54,485 nt of DNA from Verrucomicrobiota bacterium (lineage in GTDB: Bacteria > Verrucomicrobiota > Verrucomicrobiia > Verrucomicrobiales > Akkermansiaceae). The notes beneath the pieces were generated by a model. It was not told the origin of the DNA and ran no database searches. It saw nothing but the letters and a program-made list of their open reading frames with translations. Of this stretch, positions 44,871 through 48,086 are shown in pieces (position 1 is the first letter of the stretch; every line of letters begins with the position of its first letter). The position numbers and the translations under genes were made by a program. The DNA lies in contig RDZR01000037.1 of the NCBI GenBank assembly GCA_004294095.1, positions 1 through 54,485 on the forward strand, given 5' to 3'.

Positions 44871-47800
44871 TTAATTGGCCACGATATTGAGAATTTTTCC
44901 TGGGATAAAAATCACTTTGCGCAAAGTTTTACCGGCGAGGTGCTCGCTGATTTTTGGGCTGGCAAATGCAATTTCCTCAATCGCAGGTTGCTCCAAATCT
45001 AACGGCACCACGATGCGATCGCGCAGCTTACCATTGACTTGAATGACGAGCTCCACTTCGGATTTTACCAATGCGGCTTCATCATATTGTGGCCATGATC
45101 CTTCGCACAACATGCCATTGCCACCGAGCTTGGCGTGAATTTCTTCAGTGAGATGCGGCGCAAATGGATTGAGCAATTGCAGCAAGATGAAAAATTCCGC
45201 GCGTGGCACCACCGTCGCTTGCGTGAAGGCGTTGGTGCAGATCATCATTTGGGAGATGGCTGTGTTGAAGCTGAGCTTCTCGATGTCCTCTGAAACTTTT
45301 TTGATCGTTTCATGCACGACGCGGCGCAGCGTGAGATCGGAGCACGGCACGTCTTGGACTTTTTGTGAAATTGCCCACGAGCCATCTTCTTTTTCCTCAA
45401 AGGCCAAGCGCCAGACGCGGGCCAGAAAGCGCGAAACTCCTTCAACACCTTTCATCTGCCACGGCTTCACTTGCTCAAGCGGGCCCATGAACATTTCATA
45501 AAGCCGCAAGGCATCCGCTCCATACTCGCGAATCACATCATCCGGATTGACCACATTGCCGCGGGATTTGGACATTTTTTGCCCGTCTTCGCCGAGGATC
45601 AGGCCTTGATTGATGAGTTTTTGAAATGGCTCAGGCGTGCTCACTTCACCAAGATCAAACAACACTTTATGCCAAAATCTCGCGTAGAGCAGATGCAGGA
45701 CCGCGTGCTCGGTGCCGCCTACGTAAAGATCAACCATGCCAGATTTTTCCTCAGATCCGCCGGACCAATACGTTTCCGCTTCGCGGGAAATGAATCGGTT
45801 TTTATGACTAGGATCACAGTAGCGAAGGTAATACCAGCATGAGCCAGCCCACTGCGGCATGGTATTGGTTTCGCGCGCGCTGCCATCTGCAAGCTCAACC
45901 CACTCACGGGCTTTGGATAAAATAGGATCTGGCGTGCCTGTTGGCTTGTAGTCTTCTAACGGAGGGGCAAGCAACGGCAACTCTGATTCTGCTAGGCCGT
46001 GGTGCTGGCCGTTTTTCCAGACGAGCGGGAATGGCTCGCCCCAGTAACGCTGGCGCGAGAAGAGCCAATCGCGCAATTTGTATTGAACGCGGCATTTCCC
46101 TAACTGCTTGGCCTCTAACCACGCAATCATTTCACGCTTGGCATCCGCCGTGGCAAGACCATCGAGGAATCCAGAGTTGACTGCGATGCCCGGGCCATCA
46201 AGGAGCGTGGGCGTCCCGCCCACATCTTCATCATGAGTGGGCGAGACGCCCACGCTCCTTGACCAGTGCACGAACGCTCCTTCTTTAAGTCTAGCCCGCT
46301 TAGGATTCTCAGCAATGTAAGTCTGCAAGTGATCGTGATGATCCCGATCACGCACGATTCGGTCCCAATAATCTTTTTGCCATACCTCGCCAGAGGTGCT
46401 GCGAGCCTTATTGATTTCCTTCGCGGAAAAACTTTTCCATGAATGAATCACGTCTTCTAACAAGTGATCTGGAGAAAGCCGGAAAAGCACATGCACATGG
46501 TTCGGCATGATCACGAAGGATTCCAAAAAATAGCGATCCCCATCAAAATGATGCATGGCATCGGCGACGATTTTTGAAATAGAAGAGTTCTGAAGAATAC
46601 ATTCGCCGCTTCCGGAATCTAACCATTCATCGATGGATTTTGAAAAGCGTTGGTGGTATTCGTTCTCGGTATCCGTATCCCATGGTTCGGGATGAATAGC
46701 CGTCCATGCGTCCCTTTCGGCGCGCCATTGATTGAGTTTTTCTTGAGGAATACTATCTGCTAGGCGCCAGGTTGCGAAAATGAGTTTACCTTTCTGTTGC
46801 CAGTGCGGCAGTTCGAAGGTGACGTGCTTCTGGATTTCTTTTTCGGGATTGAAATAGGGGGAAGATGTGGGCGAGACGCCCACGCTCCTTGTGACAACCG
46901 TCTTGATCGGCAGGCTAAACTTGCTTGCAAACTCAAAGTCCCGCTCATCATGCGCGGGCACGGCCATGATCGCTCCGGTGCCGTAACTCATCATCACGTA
47001 ATCGGCAATCCAGATCGGGAGCTGCTCTCCGTTGACCGGATTGATCGCATACGCGCCGGTGAAGACGCCGGATTTGTCTTTATTCAAATCTCCACGATCG
47101 AGATCGGATTTCGCTGAGCATGATTTCTGATAGATCGCCACAGCTTCTTGTTGACCGGCGGTGGTGATTTGCGGAACGAAGGGATGCTCCGGCGCAAGCA
47201 CCATGTAGGTCGCACCAAAAAGTGTATCGGGCCGAGTGGTGAAAACTTCGATTTGAAATGGGTGATCTGAAATATCAAATTGCACGGATGCGCCTTCGCT
47301 GCGCCCGATCCAATTTTTTTGCAAAAGTTTAATCCCTTCCGGCCAATCGAGCGTGTCGAGTTCATCGATCAAACGTTGAGCGTATTTGGTGATGCGCAGC
47401 ATCCATTGGCGCAGTGGCCGCCGCTCGACTTGGTGGCCCTTGGCTTTCCATTCCTCGACTTCTTCATTGGCCAGCACGGTGCCCAAATCGGGCGACCACC
47501 AGACCGGTGTGTCCGCGACGTATGCAAGCCGCACGTCATCGATTTGCTCACGCGTCCAACCTTTTTCTAACAACTCGGAAACGGGCCTCGCACGTTGTGT
47601 TTCTTCGCAGAAATACGACTGATAGATTTGCAGAAAAATCCACTGCGTCCAACGCACATATTCGGGATCGGTGGTGGCGATTTCGCGGTCCCAATCGTAG
47701 CCGAAGCCGAGTGCTTTGAGTTGGCGGCGATATGTCTCAATGTTCTGAGCGGTGGTGATCGCCGGGTGCTGGCCAGTCTTGATCGCGTATTGCTCGGCAG

Positions 47801-48086
47801 GCAGGCCGAACGAATCGTAACCCATCGGGTGCAAGACGTTGAAGCCATTCATTTTTCGATAGCGCCCGATGATATCCGTCGCCGTGTATCCTAATGGATG
47901 GCCGACGTGTAGGCCCGCACCGCTTGGGTAGGGAAACATGTCCAGAACGTAAAATTTAGGCTTCGCGGCATCAAATCCTTCCTCACCCGGGCCCGGGGTG
48001 CGGAACGTTTTTTCCTGATCCCAGCGGCTTTGCCAGAAGGGTTCAAACTCACGAAATGGGAATGGCTTGCGAACGGTGGTGGACAT
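44871..48086 (-). CDS. leuS: Leucyl-tRNA synthetase with an in-frame RAYT transposase insertion
   Basis: A 1071-residue frame. LeuRS parts: catalytic [17 protein letters not shown], the editing domain with [19 protein letters not shown] and [19 protein letters not shown], then [13 protein letters not shown]; after the insertion [14 protein letters not shown], the [11 protein letters not shown] loop, anticodon-binding and C-terminal domains ([15 protein letters not shown]). Residues about 400-629 are foreign: a Y1 transposase domain with MPNHVHVLF (H530/H532) and a candidate catalytic Y590. Removing them leaves 841 residues, the normal length. The frame is open throughout, so the protein may be made with the insert. 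The start is ATG 48086 ([19 protein letters not shown]), not the longer frame to 48215. Confidence 0.93.
46200..46223 (+). repeat. REP palindrome, inner right end of the RAYT element
   Basis: AAGGAGCGTGGGCG, TC, CCGCCCAC: a head of five bases and a GTGGGCG/CGCCCAC-type stem. Inverted relative to the other two copies; together with the copy at 46237 it makes a head-to-head pair like a BIME. Confidence 0.8.
46237..46260 (-). repeat. REP palindrome, middle copy
   Basis: GTGGGCGAGACGCCCACGCT then CCTT, identical to the copy at 46867-46890 and 13 bases from the inverted copy at 46200. Within leuS it encodes RSVGVSPT. Confidence 0.8.
46867..46890 (-). repeat. REP palindrome, left end (in leuS reading direction) of the RAYT element
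   Basis: Same 24 bases as 46237-46260. It marks the point where the leuS product changes from LPIKTVVT to RSVGVSPT. Confidence 0.8.

Follow-up and report, generated by a model that had tools for sequence, protein, structure and literature searches.

In the stretch of DNA analyzed here (the window, 54,485 nucleotides), leuS (44871-48086, minus strand) is one frame of 1071 codons, open from its ATG, which encodes a complete bacterial leucyl-tRNA synthetase (LeuRS) together with a RAYT/REP element of 230 residues, which lies in a variable CP1 loop. The REP ends of this element are open in the frame of the host, and both its HUH site and its amino acid sequence are conserved; the orthologous site appears as empty, occupied, or scarred among related species, and in a number of cases the history of the element differs from that of its host. 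From these comparisons we consider it likely that the mobile element is an in-frame, unspliced passenger domain of LeuRS, spreading horizontally into fixed sites.

Anatomy of the Interrupted leuS

The frame is matched by both Pfam and NCBIfam models. Its N-terminal part (46890-48086, minus strand) comprises the catalytic N half with HVGH and CP1 as far as IKTVVT, and its C-terminal part (44871-46199, minus strand) comprises the end of CP1, the KMSKS motif, and the anticodon-binding domain. That the residues outside the insert make up a complete LeuRS, as the sequence-only reading had claimed, is supported by the LeuRS domains that Pfam detects on both sides of the insert in the 1071-residue protein and by the score of the fused protein against TIGR00396 (leuS_bact; 959 bits, with a cut-off of 548). 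HVGH (residues 60-63), KMSK (837-840), and the CP1 residues H379, D380, R382, and D383 are invariant in a 27-row LeuRS alignment. The element itself (46200-46889, minus strand) is read in frame over 230 codons as residues 400-629, and alignment with an empty relative (L022) places the insertion in the loop after KKVIE, at approximately residues 364-375 of the Thermus thermophilus LeuRS (1h3n). Both the uninterrupted frame and the position within CP1 given by that reading, between IKTVVT and a ten-residue segment downstream, are upheld.

The same reading had named the insert a RAYT-like Y1/HUH transposase, and on this Pfam, motifs, REPs, and fold agree. Y1_Tnp (PF01797) matches residues 519-593 above the cut-off, with E values of about 6e-9 to 6e-10, and the RAYT domain proper, delimited by its match to our A1 profile, spans 46260-46856 (minus strand). 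The HUH motif HVH (residues 530-532; 46491-46499, minus strand) and Tyr590 (46317-46319, minus strand), both located by the RAYT alignment, are invariant across its 28 rows; from knowledge of the RAYT family we take Tyr590 to be the catalytic residue. The insert is divergent by the NCBIfam model REP_Tyr_transpos, its best match in that collection (E = 3e-19), which it meets with 69.3 bits, below the curated cut-off of 80; we name it a RAYT because the fold, the motifs, and the REPs fit. Modeled alone, the RAYT domain reaches a pLDDT of 89 and a pTM of 0.81, and the best solved structural match of the insert model is TnpA-REP of Escherichia coli (4er8_A; Z 13.4, rmsd 3.1, 138 aligned residues). 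The model of the whole fused LeuRS is poor (pLDDT 61, pTM 0.37), its RAYT part lying for the most part at 70-91 and a large share of the LeuRS core being poor because the alignment is shallow; a Foldseek search with this model returned only LeuRS chains among the 50 matches listed.

The element is bounded by inverted repeats, as had been noticed, although the length of 24 bp first assigned to them was too short: The arms measure 31 nt, are 97% complementary, and lie at 46199-46229 and 46861-46891, and the 3' end of the element has another REP, which adds a 26-nt inverted pair (46198-46223 and 46237-46262). The 5' REP (46861-46891, minus strand) encodes a peptide resembling a characteristic 11-residue sequence, and the 3' inverted pair (46198-46262, no strand assigned) encodes 21 residues. 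This REP belongs to a genomic family with 23 matches at three mismatches or fewer, three of them within leuS, against none for the reversed control, and two REP pairs elsewhere in the source genome are perfect. Transposase-less REP pairs also lie in frame in that genome, at C73:15267-15327 (L039) and C58:1049-1105 (L047); one of the two frames is haloacid dehalogenase-like and the other is of the Eco57I type.

Removal of the insert at the RNA or protein level, by an intron, an IStron-like or an intein-like process, or its bypass by the ribosome, would account for its tolerance by essential enzymes. We regard this as very improbable, given that, to the extent of the contigs, the insert is in frame and stop-free in each of the 21 occupied LeuRS; the same is seen in other hosts, where the open frame helped us to recognize the inserts. 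Pfam finds no Hint or other splicing domain in the fused protein up to an E value of 0.01, and the eight Rfam matches around the insert all lie below their gathering scores, with none an intron (miRNA hairpins, 7SK). Splicing or bypass would not need stop-free in-frame inserts, and for this reason we favor another option raised by the sequence-only reading, namely that the enzyme works with the extra domain. A Rickettsia palindromic element, a short palindromic insert without a gene, was also considered and rejected, as the insert encodes a transposase domain.

The leuS Site in Relatives and RAYTs in Other Host Enzymes

A search with the fused LeuRS, of the kind that the earlier reading had advised, recovered the same in-frame insertion in many of 99 relatives from three families of the order. 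Among the 62 proteins compared at this site, 21 are occupied, 24 are empty (a plain gap of 29 residues), 8 carry scars, that is, short REP-like peptides assigned by our own motif list, and 9 have other extensions; two further loci (L026 and L232) were left unclassed. Four LeuRS (L205, L217, L201, and L211) have the same loop extended without a REP-like motif, the gap being 38-71 residues as against 29. The types of RAYT and REP vary among the occupied genes, and the occupied alleles lack approximately 9-10 residues of the empty loop, which points to replacement rather than a clean insertion.

This recurrence also bears on whether the locus is an assembly artefact, or a dying gene with an intact copy elsewhere. 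Some contigs do stop inside the insert, in the manner of a repeat (L017 and L019), and the source genome consists of 113 contigs; yet the same-site insert recurs in many separate assemblies, which makes chance and assembly error unlikely, and the LeuRS motifs are intact. Contigs with an occupied leuS reach 259 kb in length (G018). The leuS genes read from three one-contig genomes (G004, G049, and G065) are all empty at the site, and one-contig genomes carry an insert in other hosts (metH in G004, ispG in G477). No second leuS, which the sequence-only reading had named as the finding that would speak against it, was detected in the source genome, rated 97% complete: PF13603 gives one strong match (206 bits), the two others being weak (37 and 25 bits). 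An artefact of either kind is thus of negligible probability.

The embedded RAYT had been presented as a single oddity, a view that does not hold: RAYTs lie within enzymes of the relatives and of other phyla, often at one site per orthologue and sometimes twice per gene. The source genome encodes five RAYTs at E values of 0.01 or less, four of them in frame inside enzymes, namely LeuRS, the type I restriction R subunit HsdR (C14), MetH (C86), and AlaRS (C61), and the fifth free-standing in a frame of 217 residues (C55); these hosts were read from the frames, with a Pfam check made directly for alaS and through relatives for HsdR (L067) and metH (L185 and L187). Across 20 genomes of the same genus, the open frames of 63 RAYT rows have a bimodal length distribution: 34 do not exceed 320, 28 reach at least 580, and a single one, of 501, lies between. 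In the phylum, at least 93 of 387 genomes have a RAYT match at 1e-40, and frames of 450 or more hold 54 of the 150 matches listed, a long frame not always being a host; up to eight candidates were scored per genome, so that these counts are lower bounds.

For ispG, a single match runs through host, RAYT, and host again in 26 of 73 genus genomes, and in the 30 loci read the IspG motifs flank the RAYT on both sides within one frame in 26 and on one side in 4. Two RAYTs occupy two different sites of one open frame in metH of G055 and G057 and in ispG of G054 (L298:1215-5570, minus strand; L299:1508-5782, minus strand; L300:508-3882, plus strand), Pfam having confirmed the hosts for G057 and G054. 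In the named genomes, reading the best 80 of 428 loci yielded 37 host-frame RAYTs, including four that are one-sided at a contig end (L071, L126, L140, and L143) and one with a frameshifted RAYT (L122). Judged by their record titles, they include the Verrucomicrobia, Kiritimatiellales, Lentisphaerae, Planctomycetota, Bacteroidota, Ignavibacteriales, Chlorobiaceae, Chloroflexales, Methylomirabilis, and Proteobacteria. Pfam named the host enzyme in all 25 fused proteins tested, from named genomes and relatives: HsdR, MmeI, a PLP decarboxylase, an Eco57I-type enzyme, the large subunit of exonuclease VII (XseA), CarB, a zinc dehydrogenase, ValRS, adenosine deaminase, SNF2, CCA/poly(A) polymerase, UxaC, a FabA-like protein, a radical SAM enzyme, IspG, MetH, and AlaRS. 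In 6 of the 25 (L088, L107, L181, L187, L064, and L179) Y1_Tnp falls short of 1e-5 and the RAYT was recognized by the A1 profile. The ValRS insert lies at the same place in two genomes (L095 and L310).

Three further observations concern particular loci. In type II restriction-modification enzymes from several phyla (L088, L102, L117, L129, L130, L133, and L140), the embedded RAYT lies slightly past the YTPREIV-YM motif, a favored region. In a gammaproteobacterial MAG (L123), a RAYT is embedded in an adenosine deaminase frame that also has a Cas_NE0113-like part, and in Luteolibacter marinus NBU1238, judging by the title a named strain from the same order, a RAYT is split across two frames (L138).

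Embedded RAYTs are under purifying selection and usually have no ATG of their own. Of the embedded RAYTs, 9 of 75 have an ATG within the 30 codons ahead of the LPHW motif, compared with 47 of 56 among the free ones (Fisher p = 2e-17). Ten rows without LPHW are left out of this count, the labels free and embedded were partly assigned by hand, and GTG or TTG starts are possible. All 75 embedded copies retain HxH, as do 55 of the 56 free ones; a loose tyrosine motif is present in 70 embedded and 50 free copies, and one of the five embedded misses (L017) is cut by a contig end. Values of dN/dS for the element are 0.059-0.302 in 17 of 20 pairs, with three saturated, and those for the hosts are 0.030-0.275.

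Histories of Element and Host

A RAYT tree of 141 rows, built without three long frames that have no clear host (L084, L113, and L198) and three short pieces of broken RAYTs, requires 29 changes for 14 host groups, compared with 76 when shuffled. The RAYTs of ispG (10 rows), metH (7), hsdR site A (6), and carB (5) each fall to one side of a branch, as do those of the CCA enzyme, alaS, the deaminase, and the dehydrogenase; those of leuS fall into 4 changes for 22 rows (20.6 shuffled), and the RAYTs of type IIG enzymes (9 rows, 5 changes), of other HsdR sites, and of MmeI form no one-branch grouping. This tracking of host genes by RAYT lineages, together with a correlation of 0.43 between RAYT and LeuRS identities over 210 pairs, is what an old domesticated domain, inherited vertically with many losses, would leave behind. 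We nevertheless judge such an origin improbable: The loop of the empty alleles is not one that deletion of the insert would recreate, and both tree tests and synonymous divergence set some elements apart from their hosts.

Occupancy of leuS is scattered on the LeuRS tree, with clustering no greater than chance (17 changes against a shuffled mean of 17.8, a count as low being reached in 213 of 500 shuffles; at least 11 changes by the starred branches). In AU tests, made on 26 chosen rows under a simpler model and with groups named from the RAYT tree after both trees had been inspected, the LeuRS data reject the RAYT groupings {L004, L013, L228, L017} (p = 8e-7) and {L009, L010} (p = 1e-12); the pair {L008, L016} stays unrejected (p = 0.134). 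As this pair is unrejected and the groups were picked after inspection, part of the history of the element may be vertical.

Synonymous differences, compared over all 20 pairs, are clearly lower in the element than in the host in 5, higher in 7, and equal in 8, the last in keeping with vertical inheritance. Examples of the lower pairs are leuS L006/L019 (0.024 vs. 0.181), ispG (0.077 vs. 0.274), and a type II enzyme (0.299 vs. 0.684); all five stem from these three genes and are not all independent, two of them sharing the ispG of L182. A first look at 10 of the 20 pairs, picked after seeing dS, had given 5 lower, 3 higher, and 2 equal, so that the result for all 20 is less one-sided. For the seven higher pairs, part of the explanation may be that synonymous sites are less constrained. 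The five lower pairs, in which the age of the element is clearly less than that of the split between the hosts, are a clear sign that it entered, or was exchanged, after the hosts had diverged, and in part of the cases the element thus appears to have moved between species into the same site. The RAYT may be the driver of this movement.

Horizontal spread could also come about with no activity of the RAYT, if homologous recombination between the alleles of related species carried the insert along, an explanation that we find rather unlikely. The flanks are conserved, and occupied alleles share them somewhat beyond expectation, the observed level being reached in 104 of 5000 shuffles; in the type II enzymes L133/L140, moreover, identity begins to climb ahead of the element, as recombination would predict. 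In leuS L006/L019, where the profile covers the 5' side only since L019 ends within the element, and roughly in ispG L181/L182, the rise in identity coincides with the element and high identity is confined to it, with no longer tract. Nor would a mere hitchhiker need the HxH that every embedded copy retains, or show such low dN/dS. Among the closest pairs, identity over the first 60 nt drops by a mean of 18 points in 8 pairs of an occupied or scarred with an empty allele and by 5 points in 5 pairs of two empty alleles (p = 0.004). Even among empty alleles the 60 nt next to the leuS site vary, and we take this co-conversion footprint as a hint only, because the pairs are non-independent, the difference shrinks at lower thresholds (p = 0.02 and 0.10), and shuffling reaches the observed flank sharing at the frequency given above.

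Under the reading that we prefer, that of an unspliced passenger spreading horizontally, the ribosome would read through the insert and LeuRS would fold around a separately folding transposase domain in the permissive CP1 loop. The RAYT, either fused or released by proteolysis, may nick single-stranded REP DNA, and copying or recombination would bring the element into the empty alleles of orthologues in other species, its route to exactly the same site being either nicking by the RAYT or plain homologous recombination between alleles; in-frame deletions would remove it again, with scars remaining. A host gene that does not tolerate disruption would protect the element, because only a precise in-frame loss is permitted and the host supplies expression. 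More tentatively, and as a possibility to which we give somewhat less than even weight, these may be splicing-free homing elements, in which a Y1 HUH nickase has become a translated domain of essential enzymes and lost its own start codon, each lineage being tied to one site in one gene (LeuRS, AlaRS, ValRS, IspG, CarB, MetH, HsdR, and others). Such a nickase would convert the empty alleles of other species by nicking them, and would mobilize dispersed REP pairs in trans from within the host enzyme.

Relation to Known Elements

The elements share with RAYT/TnpA-REP and REPtrons the HUH-Y1 fold, the tyrosine, the flanking REPs, and dispersed REP pairs in the genome. In the available parts of two accounts (PMC3733652; PMC6006769), RAYTs are described as genes of their own; unlike those, the elements found here are domains of other proteins, mostly lack an ATG, and form host-specific lineages. 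The survey in PMC6006769 mentions, in the same parts, that a few unexpectedly long family members were discarded as gene fusions or annotation errors. Rickettsia palindromic elements (RPEs) and intragenic REPs are likewise palindromic selfish DNA in frame in protein genes, and are short according to the available text (20 to 82 residues for in-frame REP inserts, approximately 150 bp for RPEs); they differ in that this text mentions neither an inner transposase nor site-specific spread for them (PMC10969869; PMC3733652). A further paper, PMC8813620, is in its available part unrelated to embedded RAYTs.

Three features of homing elements, the same site in orthologues, a lineage tied to its host, and horizontal spread, were found here in part of the cases only. 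Inteins with homing endonucleases place a nuclease in frame within conserved enzymes, at the same site of orthologues, with a patchy distribution and horizontal spread. The elements described here resemble them as in-frame DNA nucleases that occupy the same site, are patchily distributed, and appear to spread horizontally, and differ in that no splicing domain was found in the fused LeuRS, the nuclease is of the HUH-Y1 type, the ends are REPs, and scars are left. Yeast WHO elements, which likewise do without protein splicing, target the gene of an enzyme (FBA1) by homing, but according to the available part of the account they replace the 3' end of the gene, use an intein-related endonuclease, and are eukaryotic (PMC7282813).

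In-frame REPs and RPEs are thus known already, and what seems to be new is that an entire RAYT forms a domain of a host enzyme; our searches of the open-licence PubMed Central literature, preprints excluded, gave no account of complete RAYTs lying within other proteins. The "long" transposase proteins put aside as fusions or annotation errors are suggested to hold a real class, and the embedded RAYTs provide a natural catalogue of positions at which tRNA synthetases and metabolic enzymes tolerate insertions. If the interpretation is true, an entire transposase can be maintained inside essential enzymes, as one of their domains and with no splicing, and the known range of intein-like parasitism would be widened.
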